This document shows, one piece after another, positions 15,722-46,665 of a stretch of DNA of 64,000 nucleotides (within the stretch, counting starts at the first letter, position 1; each line of letters opens with the position of its first letter). The translations under genes were made by a program, and so were the position numbers. Under the pieces are notes generated by a model. It made no database searches, was not told the DNA's origin, and saw nothing but the letters and a program-made list of their open reading frames with translations. Source of the DNA: Chrysoperla carnea (taxonomy: Eukaryota; Arthropoda; Insecta; Neuroptera; Chrysopidae); the NCBI RefSeq assembly GCF_905475395.1, contig NC_058342.1:30896140-30960139 (forward strand), written 5' to 3'.

Positions 15722-16474
15722 TTAACATTTTGTGTCGATTTCAGATTCACACACAAATGGTTCATCAAAATGACATACAAAATTGTACAAACCAATACTG
15801 CTAGGTTCTACAAAGAGGGCTCCACATTGTTCATAGGGTTCATTATCAGGTTGACCTATTCCCCAATGAGTGTATTCTGAGTAGCTTGTGTCTCTTCCTG
15901 TAAAATAAATTTTATAAATCGAAACGGTAAAAATTTCTTACCGTGTATAATCAAGAACTGAATTAATAATCATTGACCATCATGGCTAAGATTAAGGTCA
16001 AATTCAAGGCCACTATTAGATTGTACGGTCGAAATCCTACAACTTTTGTCTTAGTAATTCTTTTTATAATCATTTTCTAAAATTCAGAGGGAGTCTCGAA
16101 CTTTTTGAGCATCATGTATATAATTTGTCAAATGCTTTAACGTTGAGAAACTGCTCGTTTCAGAATTTAACAAAAAACTAATTTGCTCGATCTGACCTAT
16201 TACCTTTTGCTTAAAAAAATTAATACATACCATCAATTGTAACCCATTCGCCAAGTTTGAAAAAGTCATGATACCCAACAAAGATATAATCGTCTAAGGT
16301 GGCACCAATTACATTTCCGTATAAGTTGGCGATAAATGATTCTTCTTCCACGGAATTAATTATTGTTAAATGCGCTCCTTCACTCTCACAAACGCGTCGT
16401 GCTTTTACCCATGTCGTTGCATTGTTGTGAAATTTATATAAGCTACCGTTATGGCTTATGTAATCTTGATGAGT
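15722..16474 (-). other. C-type lectin domain 3 and C-terminus
   Basis: Exons 16474-16231 and 15897-15722. Motifs are ARRVCESEGAHLTII, FVGYHDFF, GIGQPDNEPYEQCGAL, LYNFVCHFDEPFVCE. This domain has diverged: the LDD of CTLD1 and CTLD2 is LYN, so the second half of the calcium/sugar site is altered. The chain ends ESEIDTKC, an additional unpaired-looking Cys as last residue, which might allow disulphide-linked dimers. A GTAAGT lies six bases after the stop codon. Confidence 0.9.
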
Positions 16475-19400
16475 CTATAAAAAGTTATTGAATTGTAAAG
16501 ATAGAATATTCAGATCTAGGGAGGATACCTCCTTTGACTTAACAGTCCTCTCGGTAGGATCATAAACAGCAAGTTTCTGAGATAACATTAGGGTATTCTA
16601 CTATTTTTGAAAAAGTACCTCAAAATGTTGATTTTGCTAATAAAAAGCCACCAAAAATTTATTTCGGAAAAATACACAAACTTTCTTGCCAAAAACTTGA
16701 ATTTTAAACCTTTTTCAAACTGTCAAAAACACGGGCATCCAATTTGATGACGTAATATCGGTATCATTATTCGAAATAACACAAATAAGTTTGACAGATA
16801 CATTCATAGACATCTGATTATAATAAATATAAATACTTATTATCTATGTATATATTATACCCAGCTCTCTACACTGAACTAACTGATGGTGTATGACTCA
16901 TACCGATATGACATCACAGCCTTGCACGCGTTTTAGGTCACATGATATACAGTTTAAAAATTACGATTTTTAATTTTAATATTTTAAAAGAAAAATGTAC
17001 TTTTATGACTTGAAATCAGAATATTTAAGTATATTTTTACATAAATTTTTTCTTTTTTCAAATTTCATAATTTATTTTTGACTAACGATAATACCCTATT
17101 GAAAAAATTGATCCGGAATAGCAACCCTTATATACGATTTTATTCAATATCTTAGAAATTGTTCGACAAGACGAATATTTTGTTTGTTTTTTTCAAGCCA
17201 AAATGATTCTAGAAAACGATTTGTATCCAAATCGTACCCAAAATAATTTTTCCCAATTTTTTTAAGGGGTTGTCATTTCAAATAAATGAGTTGGGATCAT
17301 ATTTAGATAAGACTTCACTTTTTTCTTCAAATCGAACGATCGAATCAAAATACTAATCAAAAACTTACACCTTAGGATATGGGAAATTGGTAGTAAAATC
17401 TTATTCATTATTATTGGATTAGTTACACTTACCTTCTCGATTGGCACATCAGTCTATAAAATAAATTTTTTCAATTAGAAAAGTTTCTGATAGTATTTCA
17501 AGCTTTTATGCTAATTTACAGAATGTACTTTTCTAAACAGTTTTATTTGAGCTTGATTAATAAATCTTTACTTACTGTGGTCGGAATTGTAGGTGTAGTT
17601 GGATTTTTGGTGGGGTTTGTAGTCGACTCTGTGGGAGTTGTGTGTTTTCCTGTGGTATTTGTTGTCTGATTTTCGGGAGTATTCGGTACTGTGGGAGTAG
17701 TGTTTTCAACTGTGGTTCCTTCTGTTGTAGGCTATAACAAAAATGTTTTGAATTGGTGCTCAAAAAGGGAAACATCTCTCTTAAGATACTGATCGGAAAA
17801 AGAGATAAAATTAACATTTTTAATTCTTTTAGTAATTATACTTTTAGTAATTTAGTAAAAGCTTGAAGCGCTCAATTTAAAATATCAAAAATGGATCGAA
17901 ACGCTTCATCTACTCCACATTAAAATATCAAGACTGAATCGGAACGCCTAATTATTTCTCAATTCTTGATATTAAGCGCCTCAAGCTTTTGCTTTTGTCA
18001 GAAATTTCTACTTACTTTAGAATTTCCATTATTTTCAGTTTTGTTCGAAACTTCGTTACCGTTTGACATTTCACATACAAAAGGCTCGTTATATTGGCAA
18101 ACGTAATCATCTAAACCAACGACTTCGCCTATAGATAATGCTGCACAGTTTTCATAGGGTAAACTGTTATCAGGTTGGCCTGGTGCCCAATGCATGTATC
18201 CAATTTTTTTAGCCGATTGACCTAGAAATTAATGTTAATTGTTTAGAAGTTTACTAAATTTTAATTAGAATTTGAAAAATTCATATATACCGTCAATTGT
18301 AAGCCACTGTCCTGGTCTGAAAAAGTCATGATATCCAACAAAAATAACATTAGGATGGAATGCCCCAAATACAGCTTTATCATTGTATAAACTAGCAATA
18401 AAAGCTTCTTCTTCATGGGAATTAATAATTGCTAAATAACCACCTTCGTTTTCGCAAATGTCTCGTGCATCTGACCATATTGTAGCATTGCTGTGGAATT
18501 TATACAACTTTTCTCCGAAGGAAGCGTAGCCTTTAGGAATATGCTAAAAATTATATAAAACCATAAGTAACATTTTATTGGCTGAAGTTAATATGTTCTG
18601 TCCCGAAATAGAGTCCATCATGATTGTTTTAACCTGAAGTGATAAGGTCTTAAAATATATGTACTTCAAGCAAGTCAGAAACAAATTGTAGTTAAGTATC
18701 GCATATTTCGAATTTAGGTTTACAAATGGCTTTTGGTTAACAATGAATTCTTACTTACATTGGAATTGGTATTATTTGAATTGTCGCCTGGATTAGTGAC
18801 CTGTAGCAAAATAATTTCAAATATTAAAGAAGATTTTTCTAAGTAATTACTTAAATTACTGATTGGCCAAGATTTAGCTTTACAAATGGTTTTTAGTCTA
18901 TAATTAATTCCTACTTACATTGGAATTGGTATCATTTGTTGGATTTCCATTGGAATTCTCGTCTGGATTAGTAGTCTGTAGCAAAATTATTTTAAATATT
19001 AAATTAAGTTTTTCTAAGTAATAAGTTAATTACTGATTTGTCAAAATTTAGCTTTACAAATGGTTTTTAGTCTATAATTAATTCCTACTTACATTGGAAT
19101 TGGTATCATTTGTTGGATTTCCATTGGAATTCTCGTCTGGATTAGTAGTCTGTAGCAAAATTATTTCAAATATTAAATTAAGTTTTTCTAAGTAATAAGT
19201 TAATTACTGATTTGTCAAAATTTAGCTTTACAAATGGCTTATAGTCTATAATTAATTCCTACTTACATTGGAAGTGGTGTTATTTGTTGGATTTCCATTG
19301 GAATTCTCGTCTGGATTAGTAGTCTGTAGCAAAATTATTTCAAATATCAAATTAAGTTTTTCTAAGTAATAAGTTAATTACTGATTTGTCAAAATTTAGC

Positions 19401-22400
19401 TTTACAAATGGTTTTTAGTCTATAATTAATTCCTACTTACATTGGTGTTGGTATCATTTGTTGGATTTCCATTGGAATTCTCGTCTGGGTTAGTAGTCTG
19501 TAGCAAAATTATTTCAAATATTAAATTAAGATTTTCTAAGTAATAAGTTAATTACTGATTTGTCAAAATTTAGCTTTACAAATGGTTTTTAGTCTATAAT
19601 TAATTCCTACTTACATTGGAATTGGTATCATTTGTTGGATTTCCATTGGAATTCTCGTCTGGATTAGTAGTCTGTAGCAAAATTATTTCAAATATTAAAT
19701 TAAGTTTTTCTAAGTAATAAGTTAATTACTGATTTGTCAAAATTTAGCTTTACAAATGGCTTATAATCTATAATTAATTCCTACTTACATTGGAAGTGGT
19801 GTTATTTGTTGGATTTCCATTGGAATTCTCGTCTGGATTAGTAGTCTGTAGCAAAATTATTTCAAATATTAAATTAAGTTTTTCTAAGTAATAAGTTAAT
19901 TACTGATTTGTCAAAATTTAGCTTTACAAATGGTTTTTAGTCTATAATTAATTCCTACTTACATTGGAATTGGTATCATTTGTTGGATTTCCATTGGAAT
20001 TCTCGTCTGGATTAGTAGTCTGTAGCAAAATTATTTCAAATATTAAATTAAGTTTTTCTAAGTAATAAGTTAATTACTGATTTGTCAAAATTTAGCTTTA
20101 CAAATGGTTTTTAGTCTATAATTAAATCCTACTTACATTGGAATTGGTATCATTTGTTGGATTTCCATTGGAATTCTCGTCTGGATTAGTAGTCTGTAGC
20201 AAAATTATTTCAAATATTAAATTAAGTTTTTCTAAGTAATAAGTTAATTACTGATTTGTCAAAATTTAGCTTTACAAATGGTTTTTAGTCTATAATTAAT
20301 TCCTACTTACATTGGAAGTGGTGTTATTTGTTGGATTTCCATTGGAATTCTCGTCTGGATTAGTATTCTGTAAAAAAATTATTTCAAATATTAAAGAAGG
20401 TTTTTCTAAGTAATTAGTTAATTACTGATTGGTCAAGATTAAGCTTTACAAGTGGCTTTTAGTATACAATTTATTCTTACTTACGTTGGAATTGTTTTTA
20501 TTTGAGTTGCCGCCTGGATTGGTTTTCTGTGGACAAATTATTTCAAATATTAAAGAAGTTTTTTTCTAAGTAATTAGTTAATTACTGATTGGTCAAGATT
20601 AAGCTTTACAAGTGGCTTTTAGTATACAATTTATTCTTACTTACATTGGAATTGTTTTTATTTGAGTTGCCGCCTGGATTGGTTTTCTGTGGACAAATTT
20701 AATCAAATATTAAAGAAGTTTTTTTCTAAGTAATTAGTTAATTACTGATTGGTCAAGATTAAGCTTTACAAGTGGCTTTTAGTATACAATTTATTCTTAC
20801 TTACATTGGAATTGTTTTTATTTGAGTTGCCGCCTGGATTGGTTTTCTGTGGACAAATTTAATCAAATATTAAAGAAGTTTTTTTCTAAGTAATTAGTTA
20901 ATTACTGATTGGTCAAGATTAAGCTTTACAAGTGGCTTTTAGTATACAATTTATTCTTACTTACATTGGAATTGTTTTTATTTGAGTTGCCGCCTGGATT
21001 GGTTTTCTGTGGACAAATTATTTCAAATATTAAAGAAGTTTTTTCTAAGTAATTTGTTAATTACTGATTGGTTAAGATTAAGCTTTACAATTGGCTTTTA
21101 GTATACAATTTATTCTTACTTACGTTGGAATTGTTTTTATTTGAATTGCCGCCTGGATTGGTTTTCTGTGGACAAATTATTTCAAATATTAAAGAAGTTT
21201 TTTTCTAAGTAATAAGTTAATTACTGATTGGTCAAGATTTAGCTTTACAAATGGCTTTTAGTCTACAATTAATTCTTACTTACGTTGGAATTGGTATTAT
21301 TTGCATTGCCGCCTGGATTAGTATTCTGTAACAAAATTATTTCAAATATTAAAGAAGGTTTTTCTAAGTTATTACCTACTGATTATTCGAAATCAAACTA
21401 TTAAAAATTATTTTAGCCAAAAAAATATGTATAAGGAATTTCTGAGTAATTATGGATTATTCGAAACAGAATGTTTTCAGTCTAAGAGTTATTCATACGT
21501 ACATTGGGAATAGTGGTATTTTGTCCATGTCTTTTAGTTTGGGACTTCGAATTAAAATTTTTTTTTGTAATAATACTGACTTTTAACTCATAGCAAATCT
21601 TACTTACAATTTGGTTACCGCTTTCAGGATATTCCTGACTGTTTGATATTTCACATATAAAAGGTTCATTAAACTGGCACACATAATCATCTAAACCTTC
21701 AGTGTTGGCATCCCCTATAGCTAATGCTGCGCAATTTTCATAGGGCAGGGTGTTGTCTGGCTGCCCGGGTGCCCAATGCATGTAACTCAATTTGCTCACA
21801 GATTTACCTTTAAATTAAAGAATTCAATATGTTTATTATTATCAAAGGATTTGAAAAATTAGGATATACCATCAATTGTAAGCCATTGTCCTGGTCTGAA
21901 AAAGTCATGATATCCAACAAATATTACATTGGGTCGGAATGCCCCAAATACTTTTTTGTCGCTGTATAGACCTGCGATGAAAGTTTCTTCTTCATGGGAA
22001 TTAATAATTGCTAAATAACCACCTTCTTTTTCACAAATGTCTCGTGCTTCTGGCCATATTGTTGCATTGCTGTGGAATTTATACAAGCCGTTGCCAAATG
22101 ATACGTAACCTTGAGGAAGCTACAATATAGAAATTATTTTAAATATTAGAATTTTCGGATAACTAATTATGTGGAATTATTTCTACTTACTGTGGAAGTA
22201 GTATTTTTGTTATCACTTCCGTCTGAGGGTTTGCTTAAAGAAGTTGTGGGATTCACCGTAGGTGCGCCTGTGGTAGCTTGTTCTTTTCGAGTTGTGGACA
22301 TATGTTCTTGGGTAGTTTGTTCTGTGGAAGTTTGTGGTTTAGGAGTTTTGGAAACATTTTCTTGAGTAGTTTGTTCTGTCGAAGTTTTTTGTTTGCCAGT

Positions 22401-24741
22401 TGTGGGAATATGTTCTTGGGTAGTTTGTTCTGCCGGAGTTTGTTTTGTGGAAGTTTGTACTTTAGTAGTTGATCCTGTGGACGCTTGTTCTGTGTGAGGT
22501 TCTGTAGAAGCAGATGTCACAATACTTGGAGTTGTGGTAGGTTCTGGGGTGGTAATAGCTTTTCTGGTGGTAGAGGGTTCTGTGGTGGCAGTAGGTTCTG
22601 GAGTGGTACTAGATTGTGTGGTGATAGTAGGTTCTGGGGTGGTAGTAGCTTTTCTGGTGGTAGAAGGTTCTGTGGTGGCAGTAGGTTCTGGAGTGGTACT
22701 AGATTGTGTGGTGATAGTAGGTTCTGGGGTGGTAGTAGCTTTTCTGGTGGTAGAAGGTTCTGTGGTGGCAGTAGGTTCTGGAGTGGTACTAGATTGTGTG
22801 GTGATAGTAGGTTCTGGGGTGGTAGTAGCTTTTCTGGTGGTAGAAGGTTCTGTGGTGGCAGTAGGTTCTGGAGTGGTACTAGGTTGTGTGGTGATAGTAG
22901 GTTTTGGTGTGGTAGTAGCTTCTGTGGTGGTAGTAGGTTCTGTAGGGTTAATAGATTTTGTAGGGTTAGTAGGTTCTGTAGGGTTAGTAGGTTCTGTAGG
23001 GTTAGTAGGTTCTGTAGGGTTAGTAAGTTCTGCAAGAGTAGTGGCAGTAGCGTAGAGATCCCCATAAGGAAAACTAGCGGACGCTATTGCAGGACCGCCA
23101 TAGGGGAAAAACTGTAACAAAATTTTTTCAGTGATTAATAAAATTGTATTAAAAACCAATAAAATTGACTTGTTCGTCGACTAAAATGTGATACATATAT
23201 GGCTTGGCTTGTAGGATTTATACAGGGTGTCTCCGCTTCCATATTATTCAAGACATAAGTGTGGAAATATATTTTATCCAAAATTTTTGTAATTAAGATT
23301 TTAATTAAAACATTAAAAATAATATGTTAAGGACAGTAAACCGCCATTGATTCAATTCGGCTCTTAATATAATTATCGAATTGAACAATTTTTCTATTGT
23401 CAATGGAATTTCTATACCAGTCAATGGATATTTTCTGTGCTTAAAGCTAAAAAATTAAATACAACTTACCGGATCCGCAGTAGCTGATGTACCATAATAG
23501 TCGTAAAAATTTAACTGTAAAAAAATTAATTTGTGTGATTACAAAATCAATTAATATGTATTCGTGTTTAGGTGGTTTTCCCAAAAATATAGTTTTTCTC
23601 AACCTTTTCAAAAATGAAATGGTATTGTGTTGTTTCAACGCTCTATTAAACCATGTTTTGTTTAATTTAATTTTTCGAGACAAAAACTGCTGTAACTTTC
23701 AAAGTTACACTCTGACTCTATCTATTTTTTGCGGCTCAGAACACTTAATGTAATACCTATATATTATAAAAGCGAAAGTAACTGTGTCTTAGAAATTACT
23801 CAATGGATTTGAACGAAACTATAAAATAATATAGCTCATACATCATAATAACACATGAGCTATAATTTAGAAATATTTTAAATTTAAAAATATAAAATAA
23901 CCAAAATAAATTTTATTTTTTTGACTTTTTACTGCGCTATCTGTGAATATCATTGTGAAGCATAAATTAAAGATGTCTGTAAAAATAGTGAGTAAGATAC
24001 AATTTATGGTACTTGTTAAACCAAGGTTTTTTTGATATACTCTACGCATGATGAAAATTTTATAGTTTAAAAAAATTGAAAACTGTACATATATTTTTAC
24101 CGGTGTAAAACAATCTCTGTCGCTATTTCGAGTGTTATCGATGGGGGATCAAGTAAGAGCAAGGAACGTAAACCGGGGTGGATATCATGCTAGTGTTAAT
24201 TTTTCTGAAAGTTATATTAGTTTTTTTACAGACAAATTGAGATTTAAATGCCTGAAGCATGTGTTTTGGCCTAAATAAAGGCTTAAGAAACCAGTCTAAG
24301 GGTTTTATCCAATTCAAATTTAGTGGACTCAACTCCACCTAAAACTTTACTTCAATTCCATCGCGCAGTTGGTTTAAAAGAAGCTAAATAGTTACTTTGA
24401 TTCCGAATGACTTGTGTGAATCATAATTCTATTGACTCAACTTCGGTTTTATATATTTTTCTTAGTGTACAACTTGAGAAACAGCTTGTTCCAAAATTTA
24501 ACGAAAAGTAACTAATAATTCCCAATTTACTTTGACTCTTGGAATTGTATATAAATCAAAACTTTAAATTAAATAGATTCACGGACTTTTCAAAGTTAAT
24601 GTGTAATCCTCTCCTATATACGCTTAGAGTCGTCTAGATGGTATGAAAATCGTTATAAATAATTTCTCTACTTACGTCGGTAGCTTCACTTCCAAAACAT
24701 ATCACTGACAAAATCAATCCACAAATTGGAATTAAATTCAT
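15722..24741 (-). CDS. Secreted protein with three C-type lectin domains, mucin-like and micro-exon-encoded Asn-rich linkers
   Basis: Exons, in transcript order: 24741-24676, 23514-23470, 23111-22191, 22119-21870, 21807-21608, about 17 micro-exons between 21544 and 18759, 18543-18291, 18221-18016, 17731-17576, 17453-17433, 16474-16231 and 15897-15722 (stop TAA). Introns start GT (mostly GTAAGT) and end AG. Every junction is phase 0 except the phase 1 intron inside each lectin domain, just after the ITIDG segment. The product is about 1,128 residues: signal peptide 1-20, Thr/Pro region 38-344, CTLD1 about 345-494, Asn-rich linker 495-777, CTLD2 778-930, linker 931-989, CTLD3 990-1128. No transmembrane segment is seen, so I infer secretion. 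Insect C-type lectins often recognise microbial sugars or act in gut or salivary secretions; which applies here is unknown. Joining everything in one transcript is my inference from phase continuity and the absence of internal promoters. Two or three shorter genes remain possible. Confidence 0.8.
17433..17731 (-). other. Second Thr/Pro linker exons
   Basis: Exon 17731-17576 (52 codons) reads PTTEGTTVENTTPTVPNTP and continues as Thr/Pro/Asn-rich sequence. It is followed by a 21-bp exon, 17453-17433, encoding TDVPIEK. Both are phase 0 with good splice sites. The composition resembles the mucin-like exon 3 without its 30-residue repeats. Confidence 0.75.
17858..17992. mobile_element. Short palindromic element in a lectin-gene intron
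   Basis: Begins aaaagcttgaagcgctcaat and ends gcgcctcaagctttt, inverted ends of roughly 25-30 bp. A second copy is embedded in the fold-back element at 55.6 kb (55855-55972). Non-coding MITE-like unit. Confidence 0.65.
18016..18543 (-). other. C-type lectin domain 2 exons
   Basis: Exons 18543-18291 and 18221-18016 encode a domain very like CTLD1: ARDICENEGGYLAII, FVGYHDFFRPGQW, APGQPDNSLPYENCAAL, GLDDYVCQYNEPFVCE. The exon boundary lies at the same glycine codon as in CTLD1, so the two arose by duplication. A Ser/Asn-rich tail (NKTENNGNSK) leads into the next linker. Confidence 0.9.
18759..20367 (-). repeat. Micro-exon array, 57-bp type (nine exons) and terminal 42-bp exon
   Basis: Nine 57-bp exons have left ends at 18919, 19093, 19267, 19441, 19615, 19789, 19963, 20137 and 20311, a spacing of exactly 174 bp. 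Each encodes TTNPDENSNGNPTNDTNSN or the variant ending NNTTSN; the one at 20311 starts NTNP and that at 19441 ends NDTNTN. A last 42-bp exon (18759-18800, VTNPGDNSNNTNSN) precedes CTLD2. All are symmetric phase 0 with consensus splice sites, so any number can be included without a frameshift. The repeats lack Cys and are rich in Asn, Thr, Ser and Pro, suggesting a flexible glycosylated spacer. Confidence 0.9.
20485..21544 (-). repeat. Micro-exon array, 42-bp type (six exons plus one divergent)
   Basis: Exons of 42 bp with left ends at 20485, 20645, 20805, 20965, 21124 and 21284 recur every 159-160 bp. Each has a pyrimidine-rich CAG acceptor, a GTAAGT donor and phase 0 at both ends. The usual product is KTNPGGNSNKNNSN; the most 5' member reads NTNPGGNANNTNSN. 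A further 42-bp candidate at 21503-21544 (SQTKRHGQNTTIPN) has a weak acceptor and a GTACGT donor and is less certain. The intervening introns, about 118 bp, are nearly identical. Confidence 0.85.
21608..22119 (-). other. Exons 4-5: C-type lectin domain 1
   Basis: Exons 22119-21870 and 21807-21608 form one CTLD. Visible are ARDICEKEGGYLAII (first Cys), FVGYHDFF in the position of the usual WIGL, the motif GQPDN, the conserved Glu-Cys of YENCAAL, and LDDYVC and FICE with the last two Cys. QPD in place of EPN is associated with galactose-type ligands, and LDD stands where WND is usual. The four canonical Cys are present and no stop is seen. Confidence 0.9.
22191..23111 (-). other. Exon 3: mucin-like Thr/Pro/Ser region with 90-bp repeats
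   Basis: 307 codons open in one exon bounded by CAG acceptor and GTAAGT donor. It starts FFPYGGPAIASASFPYG, then about five TNPTEP-type hexapeptides, then four near-identical 30-residue units (containing TTTPEPT and TTEPSTTRKA) at an exact 90-bp spacing, then a TSTEQTTQE-rich tail with degenerate 17-19-residue repeats. Dense Thr/Ser beside Pro predicts heavy O-glycosylation and an extended stalk. Long open frames in other frames and on the opposite strand here are by-products of the repeat. Confidence 0.85.
24676..24741 (-). other. Exon 1: signal peptide
   Basis: The exon encodes MNLIPICGLILSVICFGSEA followed by TD. It has a hydrophobic core and a small residue (Ala20) before a likely signal peptidase site. 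It ends exactly at GTAAGT in phase 0, and the next exon (23470-23514) encodes LNFYDYYGTSATADP. Confidence 0.85.
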
Positions 24742-24774: not shown

Positions 24775-24809
24775 TGATATTGTTTTTTAATTCGATTAGC
24801 TTTTATATA
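24775..24809 (-). promoter_or_regulatory. TATA box and initiator of the lectin gene
   Basis: On the minus strand TATATAAAA begins at 24809 and an initiator-like TCATTT has its A at 24775, about 32 bases after TATAAAA. The implied 5' leader before the ATG at 24741 is about 34 bases. The spacing fits a TATA-driven, probably tissue-specific or inducible, secretory gene. Confidence 0.65.
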
Positions 24810-35049: not shown

Positions 35050-35121
35050 GCCGTGATCGTCTAGTGGTTAGGACCCTACGTTGTGGCCGTAGTAACCCAG
35101 GTTCGAATCCTGGTCACGGCA
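35050..35121 (+). tRNA. tRNA-His (GTG anticodon)
   Basis: 72 nt. The acceptor stem GCCGTGA pairs with TCACGGC before the A at 35121. The D arm is TCGTCTAGTGGTTAGGA. The anticodon stem CTACG/CGTAG holds loop TTGTGGC with anticodon GTG at 35083-35085. The T arm is CCAGGTTCGAATCCTGG, giving a clean internal B box. No intron. A T-run beginning near 35151 serves as RNA polymerase III terminator. The wording matches the usual animal tRNA-His, and the helices are intact, so it is probably functional. In mature tRNA-His an extra G is added at position -1. Confidence 0.95.
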
Positions 35122-35484
35122 ATGTGCAAGCATTGTCACGGTGGAAGTTATTTTTTTTTTTTTTATTTTTTTATTAGTTATTAATATTTAATTATAAAAA
35201 AAATTAATTTTTTTTAACGCAAACTAAATTAACTTCTATTTCTATTTTTAACTCCTGAAACTAAAAGAGGTATGTTAGTTTTGAAACTTGTATGTTTCTA
35301 TCTGTCTGGTGGTCAACTCTTGGCGCAAAGAGACGGTTATATGTTAACGTGTGTATCTGTGTTTCTGCCTGTGGCATCCTAGCTCCTAAATGAATAAATC
35401 ATTTTTGATTTAATTTTTTTTTGTATAAAAAGGTGATTAAAGTGTTTCAGAAAATGGATAAAAAGATACACATTTAAGATTTTG

Positions 35485-37012
35485 AAACCCACTAATTTTG
35501 GGTTCTTTTTTTCAGCTGTGATGTCAGTTTTTCGCTAGCTATTACTAATGTGCTTAATTCCAGAACCAGGACTCCACAATCTTGAAACCTATTACAGCTT
35601 GGTTAATTTTGATCGCAAATTTGAAAAGTATGACCCAAATTTAGTAGGATTGCATACTTGGTTTATATAAATTGGACAAAATTTGGATGTGATAGAGCAA
35701 AATTAATTTTTTAGGATTCTGATGACGTCATAAAGTTCAAAAATTCGATTTTTTTGATAACACAGGGAAATTTTATCCGATTTTATTGGAATTTTTTTTG
35801 AAACCCACTAATTTTGGATTGTTCTTTTCAGCTGTGATGTCAGTTTTTCGCTAGCTATTACTAATGTGCTTAATTCCAGAACCAGGACTCCACAATCTTG
35901 AAACCTATTACAGCTTGGTTAATTTCGATCGCAAATTTGAAAAGTATGACCCAAATTTAGTAGGATTGCATACTTGGTTTATATAAATTGGACAAAATTT
36001 GGATGTGATAGAGCAAAATTAATTTTTTAGGATTCTGATGACGTCATAAAGTTCAAAAATTCGATTTTTTTGATAACACAGGCAAATTTTATCCGATTTT
36101 ATTGGAATTTTTTTTGGAACCCACTAATTTTGGGTTCTTCTTTTCAGCTGTGATGTCAGTTTTTCTCTAGCTATTACTAATGTGCTTAATTCCAGAACCA
36201 GGACTCCACAATCTTGAAACCTATTACAGCTTGGTTAATTTTGATCGCAAATTTGAAAAGTATGACCCAAATTTAGTAGGATTGCATACTTGGTTTATAT
36301 AAATTGGACAAAATTTGGATGTGATAGAGCAAAATTAATTTTTTAGGATTCTGATGACGTCATAAAGTTCAAAAATTCGATTTTTTTGATAACACAGGGA
36401 AATTTTATCCGATTTTATTGGAATTTTTTTTGAAACCCACTAATTTTGGATTGTTCTTTTCAGCTGTGATGTCAGTTTTTCGCTAGCTATTACTAATGTG
36501 CTTAATTCCAGAACCAGGACTCCACAATCTTGAAACCTATTACAGCTTGGTTAATTTCGATCGCAAATTTGAAAAGTATGACCCAAATTTAGTAGGATTG
36601 CATACTTGGTTTATATAAATTGGACAAAATTTGGATGTGATAGAGCAAAATTAATTTTTTAGGATTCTGATGACGTCATAAAGTTCAAAAATTCGATTTT
36701 TTTGATAACACAGGCAAATTTTATCCGATTTTATTGGAATTTTTTTTGGAACCCACTAATTTTGGGTTCTTCTTTTCAGCTGTGATGTCAGTTTTTCTCT
36801 AGCTATTACTAATGTGCTTAATTCCAGAACCAGGACTCCACAATCTTGAAACCTATTACAGCTTGGTTAATTTTGATCGCAAATTTGAAAAGTATGACCC
36901 AAATTTAGTAGGATTGCATACTTGGTTTATATAAATTGGACAAAATTTGGATGTGATAGAGCAAAATTAATTTTTTAGGATTCTGATGACGTCATAAAGT
37001 TCAAAAATTCGA
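35485..37012 (+). repeat. 316-bp satellite, five units with a 632-bp dimer period
   Basis: The marker cagctgtgatgtcag recurs at 35513, 35829, 36145, 36461 and 36777, exactly 316 bp apart. Units 2 and 4 share variants (ctaattttggattg, cagtttttcgctagc, taatttcgatcgc) and units 3 and 5 share others (gggttcttcttttcag, tttttctctagc, taattttgatcgc), so the array is built of two-unit blocks. Every unit contains the palindrome TGACGTCA. A divergent single unit lies inverted at 42309-42563. Confidence 0.95.
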
Positions 37013-39286
37013 TATACTTGTCTTATCAAAATTTGATAAAATTTGCATGTGATGAACTTTTGTTTTAATTTTTTCATAAACTAAAAGATTTAATACAATT
37101 TTAGATTAAAAGTTCTATACTTAGTATAGAGACACTCTACTAATGTAAATAATATAAACATACCTATATTTCATCATTAACTTGAATGAAGTGTCAAATT
37201 AACTATTTTAAAGTAGTTAGTGATAAGAATGATAAGAATTGGTTACATTTATATTTGTCAATTGCTTGTCTATTTATAGGTTAGGTTCATATTATTGTTA
37301 TTGTCTGTAATACGTGACCATGTTTTTTATTTGACCAAATAAAGGACGAACTTATTGAAGCTATTTAACGTATTCGCACCGTGTGTGAGTTTTATTGGAG
37401 GCGTTTCCATGGTAACGATACTTTAATTATATAATTGTATGGATTGCATTTATGACTTACATTGGAAATTTAATATTATTGTCTCACAAATTTAAATAAA
37501 TAATTATGATCATTTACATTTGAAAAATAATATTTGTGCAATTTGATTTCTTATTTTTACAATTTGTTTTTCAATAATGTTAATTTGACATTTTTTATAA
37601 CATTAACATGTAAAGAATTGCAAATTAGTCATAACAGTCTCCTTTATCGCAAAAATTTATCACTGGAAGCGCTGGCATCGATTTTATTGTCCCTACAATA
37701 ACTACGCACACAACGAATATAAACAGAAGAAATTTCTTCATGTTTTATGAAAATATTTATTGAAATAATCATAATTTACATATTTTTATTATGCCATTTA
37801 TTTTTTACATTTATTTCAAATTTTTGGGTACGTTTTATAAGTCAAAAGTCCTTCATACATTATACTTTTAATAACTTGTTCTATCTTAACACATTATACC
37901 ACTAATATGAGAGTGAGACTTTACATTTCAATGGAAAACACTGATGACGTTTTTACATTTTAAGTTTTTTCATGAGATCAGAAAATGATAAAAATTTGTT
38001 AAGTAAATAAAACAACGCTATTAGAATTCAATTTGAAAGTTAAAAATGCATTTGATTAAATCAAAAACAAATTCACTGATGACCATGTCATTGATTCGAC
38101 AACCAGAGAGCTATGGGCAAATACTAATGAGTTGATAATGACTTAATAAAAGTGAGTTCATTTACACGCTTCTCTGTAAACGTGATTATAAAAAATTTTG
38201 TTTTTGTGTTTGTGTTTTGATTATTAAGTATTTTTTATCAAGGTAGAATATCCGTAAACCCTCTTTTTATATCCTGTATATATGAAATATATATCAAGGT
38301 ATACTAATTTTAGTCTCAGGTTTGTAACGCGTAGAAAAACTCTTCTACAGCTTCTGTTCAAAAACAACTTAATGTATGACGAAATGTATTTGGTATATGT
38401 ATACATACGATGTCTAAGTATTATGTACAATCTCGTAAGGGCCATCACTAATCTTAAGATGATCTGGTATGATATCTAGATACGGAATACTAAAAGGGAA
38501 ATTTTATTAGAAAAATATTATAAATTGAGGGAATACAAAAGTAAATATTTTCCAAGAATGGGTTGGTACTTAATACGAGTAAAAATAGCAAATTTCTTAA
38601 TAAAAACGTTATCAGTTCAGTGCCGGTGTTTCACATTTTGCCGGGAAATTTCATATTGTATTCACTTTTGAAAGTAATATTAAATGTAGAAAATATGTGC
38701 GATTTTCAAAAACTAACTTTTTTACCGAATGAAATAAAATTTTGAGTAGATGATGATCCTTTCTATATTGTTTCATAAAAATCGATTTAGTAGTTATTAA
38801 GAAAACTCCTGAAACTGCTTAGACTTACGTAAGGACGTTTATTACGCACGAAGGAAGAAAGACCTAAGCTCACTAAAAACTAAAAAGTATAAAATAAAAT
38901 TTCACTTCAAATAAAAATCACTTAAGCTATTCAAAACCTTAATATTCAATTTTTTTGCAAAACATTTAATTGGTATTGGACACAAAATTTAAATTAAAAT
39001 GAGTAATGACCTTATTGTTAATCGAATTATTTGTCTAATTACTTCCCCAAAGTATTATGTATTCATATCGAATAGTTCCTAATTTGTTTTTTACAAATTT
39101 TTTTATAATAATAATATGCAAATTTTATTTTGAAGGTTTTATTTCTTACTTTTAAAAAATCTTTATCAATCATATTTTAATGAATTCTAATTGTTTTTTT
39201 GGGGGTCAAAATTCCTATTATGTATATTATTGTCATTTGTTCAAAAATCTTTGCTTAATGGCGAGGAAAATGAAATAAGAGGCGTT
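37013..39286. other. No gene seen
   Basis: Contains only a family A end fragment at 38275-38340 (atatcaaggtatactaattt, minus orientation). Otherwise AT-rich with no coding motif. Confidence 0.4.
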
Positions 39287-40464: not shown

Positions 40465-40960
40465 TTCAAACTTATTACACGTGGGTTTTTGGGTTTGCTG
40501 AACACGAATATCGTGACAGAATAGGTCTCAGGTGTACCTGGTGCTCAGAGTAAACGATTCTCCATCGTCTAGTGGAGTTTCTGGGAAATTTGTTGTATAA
40601 TCGTGCCAAATTCATTACACGAGGGTTTTTGAGGTCGCTGGACACGAATATCATAACAGATTTGGTCTCAAAGATACCTGGTGCAACGTAATTCCCGTCG
40701 TCTCCCGGAGTTTTTGAGAAATTCATCATATAATCAATCCAAACTCGGTACACGGGGGTTTTTAGGGTCACTGGACAAGAATATCGCTACAGAATCAATC
40801 TCAGAGGTACCTGGTTCAACGGTATCTCCGTTTCCTACTGGAGTTTTCGAGAAATTCGTCATATAATCAGTACAAACTCATTACTCAGGAGTTTTTGGAA
40901 TCGCGGAACAATAATATCGTGACGGAATTGGTCTCGAGAGTAGAATATCGCTATTATAAA
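40465..40960 (-). pseudogene. Decayed coding minisatellite, about 133-140 bp units
   Basis: The marker tacac-gggttttt recurs at 40476, 40616, 40749 and (degenerate) 40882. On the minus strand successive units spell variants of SSDLKNPRVMNLARLYNKF and NSKN-VMSLY-LYDEFLENS, with frameshifts and stops between them. The units therefore once encoded repeats of about 44-45 residues. 40475-40771 remains open for 98 codons but shows mixed frames. I do not recognise the family. Confidence 0.5.
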
Positions 40961-45544: not shown

Positions 45545-46665
45545 TTTCCCTTAAAAAAATTGCAAACAATTTTTTTCTCTCCGATTTTGATAAAACTCAG
45601 TATAAAGGGTAATTTTGACTCAAAAAATACAAAAATCGTATTTATTTGATGATTGGGCGTATAATTTTTGAGATAATGTCAGAAATCGCTCTAAAAAATC
45701 GTTTTTCTCAGAAACTATTATTCTAATCGTAAAATAAACACGATTTTTGAAGTTTTTGGGTCAAAATTACCTTATAAACTTAATTTTATTGAATTCCAAA
45801 AAAAACATTTTTTTTGTGATTTTCTCGATTTTTTCAAAGGGGTACCCCTTAAAAAAATTCCAAAAAATCGAAAAAAAAATTTTCTCTCCGATTTTGATAA
45901 AACTCAGTATAAAGGGTAATTTTGACCCAAAAAATACAAAAATCGTATTTATTTGATGATTGGGCGTATAATTTTTGAGATAATGTCAGAAACCGCTCTA
46001 AAAAATCGTTTTTCTCAGAAACTATTATTCTAATCGTAAAATAAACACGATTTTTGAAGTTTTTGGGTCAAAATTACCTTATAAACTTAATTTTATTGAA
46101 TTCCAAAAAAAACATTTTTTTGTGATTTTCTCGATTTTTTCAAAGGGGTACCCTTTAAAAAAATTCCAAAAAATCGGAAAAAAATTTTTCTCTCCGATTT
46201 TGATAAAACTCAGTATAAAGGGTAATTTTGACCCAAAAAATACAAAAATCGTATTTATTTGATGATTGGGCGTATAGTTTTTGAGATAATGTCAGAAATC
46301 GCTCCGAAAAATCATTTTTCTCAGAAACTATTATTCTAATCGTAAAATAAACACGATTTTTGAAGTTTTTGGGTCAAAATTACCTTATAAACTTAATTTT
46401 ATTGAATTCCAAAAAAAACTTTTTTTTTTGTGATTTTCTCGATTTTTTCAAAGGGGTACCCCTTAAAAAAATTGCAAAAAATCGAAAAAAAATTTTTCTC
46501 TCCGATTTTGATAAAACTCAGTATCAAAGGTAATTTTGACCCAAAAAATACAAAAATCATATTTATTTGATGATTGGGCGTATAATTTATGAGATAATGT
46601 CATAAATCGCTCCCAGAAACTATTACTCTAATCATTAAATAAGCACGATCTTGAAGTTTTTGGGT
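45545..46665. repeat. Tandem repeat of about 307 bp, nearly four units, each a hairpin
   Basis: The marker ctctccgattttgataaaac recurs at 45577, 45884, 46190 and 46498 (spacing 306-308). Within a unit, gggtaattttgacccaaaaa and tacaaaaatcgtatttattt are mirrored by aaataaacacgatttttgaa and tttttgggtcaaaattacct, so each unit folds on itself with arms of about 45 bp. The short open frames crossing it lack protein character. Confidence 0.9.

Follow-up and report, generated by a model that had tools for sequence, protein, structure and literature searches.

The window, the whole stretch of 64,000 nt of Chrysoperla carnea DNA analysed here, contains on its minus strand a series of predicted exons whose predicted joining yields one open frame of 3387 nt coding for 1128 aa. 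Upstream of exon 1, a TATAAAA motif is found at 24807 and an Inr-like TCATTT at 24777 on the same strand. Exon 1 (24676–24741) carries the start codon and, as judged by eye, a likely signal peptide, and is followed by exon 2 (23470–23514; 45 bp, phase 0/0) and exon 3 (22191–23111), a mucin-like PTS region with T 37%, P 15% and S 10% of 278 residues and with a coding minisatellite (90 bp x 4.5, 97% matches) lying inside the exon. The first lectin domain, CTLD1 (21608–22119), is split into exons 21870–22119 and 21608–21807 by a 62-bp phase-1 intron. CTLD2 (18016–18543; exons 18291–18543 and 18016–18221) lies beyond the micro-exon array described below, followed by a second PTS linker exon (17576–17731; 156 bp), a 21-bp micro-exon (17433–17453; phase 0/0) that by eye is unlike the array, and CTLD3 (15722–16474; exons 16231–16474 and 15722–15897), which ends in the stop codon. 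No membrane segment was seen by eye after CTLD3.

The preliminary description had assigned the array to a lectin gene, and profile searches bear this out. The first-half exon of each of the three domains exceeds the Pfam cut-off of 22.6 bits for Lectin_C (PF00059), with 25 bits for CTLD1, 27.4 for CTLD2 and 30 for CTLD3, and CTLD1 matches 108 distinct solved sequences at E values up to 0.001 (the best 60 of the 108 being listed). The QPD sugar motif can be read from the translation of all three domains; no WND motif was found in them by eye. The domain scores together with QPD place the protein among the C-type lectins, with sugar binding putative. Its coding sequence looks constrained, as the CTLD1 and CTLD2 exons share 77% aa identity at a dN/dS of 0.19. 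A profile built from the three domains finds its own six exons and no further lectin domain in the window (next match E 0.85), and searches with Rfam at the gathering threshold and with ARAGORN returned one tRNA and nothing else. We considered that a separate gene may start at CTLD2, as the frame leading into it within the preceding 215-bp intron is open for 68 codons with ATGs, but a stop is formed at the acceptor, which makes unspliced read-through from that intron into CTLD2 impossible and a separate gene improbable. A gene on the opposite strand at the array was rejected, given 58–66 stops per plus frame, a longest open stretch of 52 codons and the absence of a strong donor. The predicted product is a three-domain C-type lectin, probably a secreted one.

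Between CTLD1 and CTLD2 lie 16 consecutive predicted, open micro-exons (18759–21325, minus strand), all in phase 0 at both ends as had been described, of which seven are 42 bp (m1–m6 and m16) and nine 57 bp long (m7–m15). The 42-bp exons m1–m6 (20485–21325) repeat in units of 159–160 bp, the 57-bp exons m7–m15 (18919–20367) in units of 174–175 bp that form a three-unit (522-bp) higher-order repeat, and m16 (18759–18800) is a distinct edge copy. The 15 unit lengths, earlier given as 160 or 174 bp, are 160 (four units), 159 (two), 174 (eight) and 175 (one), and each of the 15 introns between m1 and m16 measures 117 or 118 bp. Tandem Repeats Finder reports a period of 174 x 14.9 at 18774–21303, with a score of 3284 that is the highest of its 26 rows. 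Every one of the 15 tandem units holds both exon and intron, in agreement with the earlier view that genomic DNA is being duplicated, and within these units GC content is 0.35–0.39 in exons and 0.20–0.25 in introns. The 16 core exons comprise nine distinct DNA sequences. Including the divergent exon mX, the array contributes 849 of the 3387 coding nt (25%), and because each array exon is a multiple of three, the loss or skipping of any copy stays in frame, as the preliminary description had argued; the length polymorphism and many isoforms that it drew from this would be hypothetical consequences.

Consensus splice sites had also been noted, and indeed all 16 core copies are flanked by an ACAG acceptor and a GTAAGTA donor. 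When scored with a matrix built from the 10 other donors of the gene, the core donors reach 10.1–10.9 bits, a level attained by 12 of the 5495 GT dinucleotides lying outside the gene, and the best other GT in the array scores 5.6 bits on the minus and 4.7 bits on the plus strand. Acceptor strength differs between the 42-bp and 57-bp blocks: the acceptors of m2–m6 score low, at 1.3–1.6 bits, and 784 of the 4828 AG dinucleotides outside, as well as 11 of the array's 128 further AGs, do no worse, suggesting that these five exons may be skipped. The proposed 17th, divergent exon, a 42-bp candidate (mX, 21503–21544), has an open reading frame in the right phase, but the splice sites on its two sides are weaker than those of the core (acceptor 4.1 bits, donor 6.6 bits), and the 63 bp preceding it, nominally an intron, contain no stop and are divisible by three. 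It is thus plausible as a 17th exon but may instead belong to the preceding lectin exon.

A feature that is new here and absent from the preliminary description is an N-glycosylation sequon split by splicing. The micro-exons from mX to m15 end in Asn and the next begins with X-Thr, so that each of the joins from mX|m1 to m15|m16 forms a sequon; the joins CTLD1b|mX and m16|CTLD2a form none. When order is ignored, all 272 donor-acceptor pairs (17 x 16, the copies being related) generate the junction sequon. Across m1–m16 the middle codon of the junction codes for N, K, T or V, while the Asn and Thr codons on either side of it show synonymous changes only. Each micro-exon contributes two or three sequons, except m16 with one, giving 36 in the 283-residue array, whereas its two flanks, of 494 and 351 residues, hold 3 and 7, respectively. 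This density follows largely from composition: the array is 39% Asn, for which composition alone predicts 28.5 ± 3.7 sequons, and 152 of 5000 shuffles reach 36.

The description of the units as nearly identical applies to neighbours within a block (mean identity 96%; 90% from one end of the 42-bp block to the other). It does not extend across blocks: 42-bp and 57-bp units share 75% identity with gaps counted and, without gaps, 76% in exons and 85% in introns. Within m7–m14, identity is 98.5% at lag 3 vs 96.8% at lags 1 and 2; the trimer signal is weaker over m7–m15 (97.3% vs 96.3% and 96.0%), and the raw lag identities are 95.0% for 522 bp vs 94.6% for 174 bp. The two blocks and the three-unit repeat suggest that the array grew by unequal exchange, a process that would leave both the lag-3 excess in m7–m14 and the edge exons m1 and m16 distinct from the inner copies. 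As the copies have remained similar in their exons as well as their introns, the expansion appears to be recent. The array introns resemble the intron between the PTS exon and CTLD1 (z 4.3), a likeness that is not specific, as a further intron of this gene scores almost as high (z 4.2). A search for related loci matched 1 stretch in viral contigs and 38 in genome contigs, with 0 confirmed in either, and is little informative since the collections were of viruses and prokaryotes.

Starting from the exon structure, reading frame, sequon layout and duplication pattern, all read directly from the DNA, we propose, with a probability of about 0.75, that the array is an exon-bearing minisatellite coding for an N-glycosylated linker of adjustable length in a three-domain lectin, where splicing, glycosylation and the role as a spacer are inferred. 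A genomic unit of ~160 or 174 bp, in which an acceptor and a donor enclose an exon of 14 or 19 codons, would have been amplified within the lectin gene. Serial splicing would then link CTLD1 to CTLD2 by a spacer of 269 residues (283 if mX is included) that is rich in Asn and probably disordered. From mX to m15, one sequon per exon would straddle a splice junction (Asn | X-Thr), and because of this split and of phase 0, the gain, loss or skipping of a unit inside the array keeps both the frame and the junction sequon. Unequal exchange between units, perhaps along with exon skipping, could then change spacer length and glycan number stepwise, and the glycan-stiffened stalk might set the distance between the lectin domains. 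Coding minisatellites usually change protein length within one exon; here, the unit that is duplicated comprises an entire exon together with its two splice sites, so that a single tandem array could determine how long the protein is, how many glycans it bears and which isoform is made. A more far-reaching version, which we regard as speculative, is a splice-assembled glycan counter in which sequons are kept split across phase-0 junctions, each included exon adds a fixed length and a fixed number of glycans irrespective of the exons it is joined to, and exon number is the means by which a cell or a population adjusts lectin spacing.

The repeats could alternatively be a non-coding satellite within one 3-kb intron, with the open, splice-flanked stretches being chance or relic and CTLD1 joined directly to CTLD2. 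Such a join would be in frame, as skipping the whole array is phase-compatible, and the weak m2–m6 acceptors fit this possibility. Exon vs intron divergence gives no support for coding constraint either, exons being no better conserved than introns: in four of four copy pairs tested singly the exon differs more than the intron (p 0.07–0.50). In 20000 neutral simulations (four diverged copies, the 57-bp type cut to 42 shared bases), 71% remained free of stops. Nonetheless, we consider a satellite improbable given the strong donors of all 16 core copies, which are rare elsewhere, and the retained sequons. Furthermore, from m1 to m16 the sole difference in exon size is 15 bp and in frame, whereas the introns align with single-base gaps only, and three other tandem arrays yielded no candidate symmetric open exon on either strand, even at thresholds 2 bits below the minima of the array. 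An array whose copy number was inflated or collapsed during assembly is very improbable; long near-identical repeats are a known assembly hazard, but the copies differ from one another, those at the edges stand apart, the array shows both a two-block and a trimer structure, and its ~2.6 kb is short relative to a long read.

Two further explanations overlap with the exon-bearing minisatellite. If the exons are spliced in as neutral passengers, a step common to both readings, spacer length and glycan number would be irrelevant and the minisatellite tolerated because every unit is in frame. The similar divergence of exons and introns (pooled micro-exon pN/pS ~0.56, from few events), the large contribution of composition to sequon density and the second coding minisatellite in exon 3, which suggests a gene tolerant of linker change, favor this reading; against it, the junction sequon pattern and the 2.5% of neutral simulations in which the copies stayed free of stops and retained every pairwise junction sequon as well as an internal sequon per copy are suggestive only, and we hold it to be possible though rather unlikely. 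Somewhat less likely is that diversity itself is the function, with many exon combinations generated as in micro-exon genes, which would be compatible with the preferred reading. All array exons are symmetric, the junction sequon is preserved in every tested pairing and block-specific acceptor strength could make m2–m6 optional; yet the 16 core exons code for just seven distinct peptides, with m2–m6 sharing one, so skipping alters length more than content. In Dscam-type mutually exclusive exons, one copy per transcript is chosen by intron pairing. No such docking was detected between two array introns and six flanking introns (12 duplexes, 100 shuffles each, lowest z −1.3), and the predicted folding of two array introns and of two units is slightly poorer than that of shuffled sequences (z 0.5 to 1.7).

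The exons of fibrillar collagen code for Gly-X-Y, which the 42- and 57-bp exons of the array do not. As in collagen, with its multiple 54-bp exons (excerpt of PMC5395295), the array consists of multiple exons of fixed in-frame length. In schistosome micro-exon genes, symmetric exons of 6–36 bp account for ~80% of the coding region; these genes encode mostly secreted proteins and have been proposed to vary by exon choice (excerpt of PMC5825161). The array shares their many short symmetric exons, but these are 42 or 57 bp, make up 25% of the coding nt and are tandem near-copies between folded lectin domains. The likeness to micro-exon genes and to collagen exon arrays is one of style, and the array belongs to neither. 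The parallel drawn earlier to micro-exon and aphid bicycle genes holds for style but not for exon size, coding fraction and phase: bicycle genes also have many small internal exons of a single phase in genes for secreted proteins, an arrangement of similar-sized exons that is rare in most genomes, but almost all are in phase 2 (excerpt of PMC9168663), in contrast to phase 0 in 17 of 17 array exons here. Insect C-type lectins are grouped as CTL-S, IML and CTL-X, defined by a single CRD, a pair of CRDs, or a CRD accompanied by other conserved domains, and QPD is the galactose-type motif (excerpt of PMC9954269). The present protein shares Lectin_C domains with QPD but, with three CRDs in one frame (assuming one transcript) and PTS and Asn-rich linkers, fits none of these groups. 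Among the matches listed from openly licensed PubMed Central, in the excerpts returned, no insect C-type lectin built this way is described, in agreement with the earlier statement.

Intragenic tandem repeats in human genes, half of them within coding exons, alter coding length, and those at exon-intron boundaries affect splicing and form new introns (excerpt of PMC2812944). The lectin array is likewise a tandem DNA repeat spanning exon and intron, but an entire exon flanked by its two splice sites is contained in each unit and recurs 16 times. It offers a compact, testable system for the spread of exons by unequal exchange and for the handling of 16 near-copies in series by the spliceosome, and raises the question of whether selection acts on sequons that exist only after splicing.

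The micro-exon array lies within a lectin gene on the minus strand, which extends from about 24.8 to 15.7 kb. The predicted exon order begins with a signal-peptide exon, recognised by eye, then an exon of 45 bp, a long mucin-like (PTS) exon and two exons encoding the first C-type lectin domain (CTLD1); these are followed by a divergent exon, mX, the micro-exons m1–m16 and two exons for CTLD2, and finally by a short PTS exon, a 21-bp phase-0 exon (17433–17453) and two CTLD3 exons ending in the stop codon. Joining these exons yields a single 3387-nt open frame that encodes 1128 residues. Upstream of the predicted start lie a TATAAAA motif (24807) and an Inr-like TCATTT (24777). In all three lectin domains the first-half exon scores above the Pfam cut-off for Lectin_C and a QPD motif can be read, which a beetle lectin paper describes as galactose-type (PMC9954269). 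The three domain pairs have dN/dS values of 0.19, 0.36 and 0.28, so that the lectin domains look constrained. The long PTS exon contains a coding minisatellite (22537–22943; 90 bp × 4.5, 97% matches), a second, conventional repeat linker in the same gene. The 215-bp intron preceding CTLD2 (18544–18758) holds a stretch of 68 open codons in the CTLD2 frame, terminated by a stop at the acceptor.

The core of the array (18759–21325) consists of seven 42-bp and nine 57-bp exons, all phase 0 at both ends, as the preliminary description had proposed, with 117- or 118-bp introns between them. Of the 15 repeat units, 4 are 160 bp and 8 are 174 bp long, the two lengths given in that description, and the others are 159 bp (2) or 175 bp (1). 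Each of the 16 core exons is flanked by an ACAG acceptor and a GTAAGTA donor, and together they represent 9 different sequences at the DNA level, encoding 7 different peptides. The proposed seventeenth exon, mX (21503–21544), is 42 bp long and in frame, but its weaker splice sites make it less secure. Because the 63 bp between CTLD1 and mX (21545–21607) lack an in-frame stop and are divisible by three, so that their retention would keep the frame, mX may instead belong to the end of the CTLD1 exon.

Using a matrix built from the ten non-array donors of the gene, we obtained donor scores of 10.1–10.9 for the 16 core copies. Counting both strands, 12 of the 5495 GT sites that lie outside the gene reach such values; the best other GT within the array scored 5.6. 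On an acceptor matrix that likewise rests on ten sites, m1 and m7–m16 scored 8.2–12.7, matched by 61 of 4828 outside AG sites. The acceptors of m2–m6 reached only 1.3–1.6, equalled or exceeded by 784 of the same 4828 sites and by 11 of the 128 further AG sites within the array. Intron retention after mX or any of m1–m16 would lead to a stop within 13 codons. In three other tandem arrays of the window, no candidate symmetric exons were found on either strand with thresholds relaxed by 2 bits.

Asn makes up 39% of the peptide encoded by the array, including mX, with Thr at 18% and Ser at 11%. Its 283 residues contain 36 N-X-S/T sequons, compared with 3 in the preceding 494 residues and 7 in the following 351. 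This density stems mostly from composition, as residue shuffling gave 28.5 ± 3.7 sequons and at least 36 in 152 of 5000 shuffles; the placement of the sequons says more. From mX to m15, every exon has a sequon across its 3′ junction, split by the splice join into Asn and X-Thr, besides one or two that are internal. A sequon forms whichever of the 17 donors is joined to whichever of the 16 acceptors (272 of 272 combinations), although these are related copies and not independent, and none forms at the join into mX or out of m16. At the junctions of m1–m16 the middle position, where a sequon allows free choice, holds N, K, T or V, while the codons of the junction Asn and Thr show synonymous changes only. 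In m2–m6 one internal sequon has disappeared and another has arisen two residues further on, leaving the count unchanged.

The array exons are most likely spliced in series into an N-glycosylated spacer that would join CTLD1 to CTLD2 and adjoin the separate, O-glycan-type PTS region. Since every unit is phase 0 and the sequon is split by the junction, units could be gained, lost or skipped within the array with both frame and junction site kept. A choice of isoforms among the micro-exons is possible but not needed to explain the array, and no Dscam-like intron pairing was found. The confidence placed in the isoform reading and in a neutral one overlaps with that in the serially spliced spacer, since the splicing step is common to all three.

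Speaking against the spacer reading, exons are not more conserved than introns: between the 42-bp (m1–m6) and 57-bp (m7–m15) blocks identity is 76% for exon and 85% for intron, and in single-pair comparisons the exon diverges more in four of four pairs, without significance (p 0.07–0.50). Pooled pS (0.27) and pN (0.15) lean towards constraint, with shared events counted many times over the 36 pairs of 9 distinct exons. In a neutral simulation, four diverged copies were derived from the majority sequence with the number of random changes set per copy (20000 runs, 57-bp type trimmed to the shared 42 bases). All junction sequons were retained in 16% of runs, all internal ones in 28%, an open frame in 71% and all three in 2.5%, which is suggestive but no proof, as a star tree was assumed and mX excluded.

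The described near-identity of the units holds for neighbours within a block (mean 96%) but not between blocks (75%). Identity among m7–m14 is 98.5% at lag 3 versus 96.8% at lags 1 and 2, indicating a 522-bp higher-order repeat; inclusion of m15 weakens the signal (97.3% versus 96.3% and 96.0%), and raw sequence identity is 95.0% at 522 bp versus 94.6% at 174 bp. The peptides trace this trimer as NNTTSN, NDTNSN, NDTNSN over three rounds, except that m12 ends in NDTNTN. Together with the distinct 42-bp-type edge exons m1 and m16 and an m15 intron that by eye appears a mosaic of both unit types, the higher-order repeat is the pattern expected from repeated unequal exchange. The 42-bp exon is perhaps the older form. 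Introns at the array edges resemble the array intron (z 6.0 after the second CTLD1 exon, 8.5 after mX, 8.4 after m16). The likeness is weaker for the intron that separates the PTS exon from CTLD1 (z 4.3), and another intron of the gene gives nearly as much (z 4.2), so this likeness is taken as non-specific and not as a sign of origin.

The kinds nearest to the array are schistosome micro-exon genes (PMC5825161), bicycle genes (PMC9168663), collagen 54-bp exons (PMC5395295) and human internal tandem repeats (PMC2812944), the last being the only one of the four from which no tested feature was missing. Human tandem duplicated exons are treated in PMC9741552. Among the matches listed from openly licensed PubMed Central articles, titles and abstract openings apparently included neither an insect lectin with tandem micro-exons nor splicing-made sequons, the splicing query returning general papers on splicing.

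Elsewhere, the window contains a Rheb GTPase gene fragment on the plus strand (2264–2524; Pfam Ras 8e-14, solved Rheb chains 7e-26). A plus-strand tRNA-His gene (35050–35121) lies about 360 bp ahead of a tandem array of 316 bp × 4.9 (35480–37013, 98%), which, like another of 306 bp × 3.4 (45572–46612, 96%), has no exon-like structure under the criteria used. A diverged array of 133 bp × 3.5 with 74% matches occupies 40467–40940.
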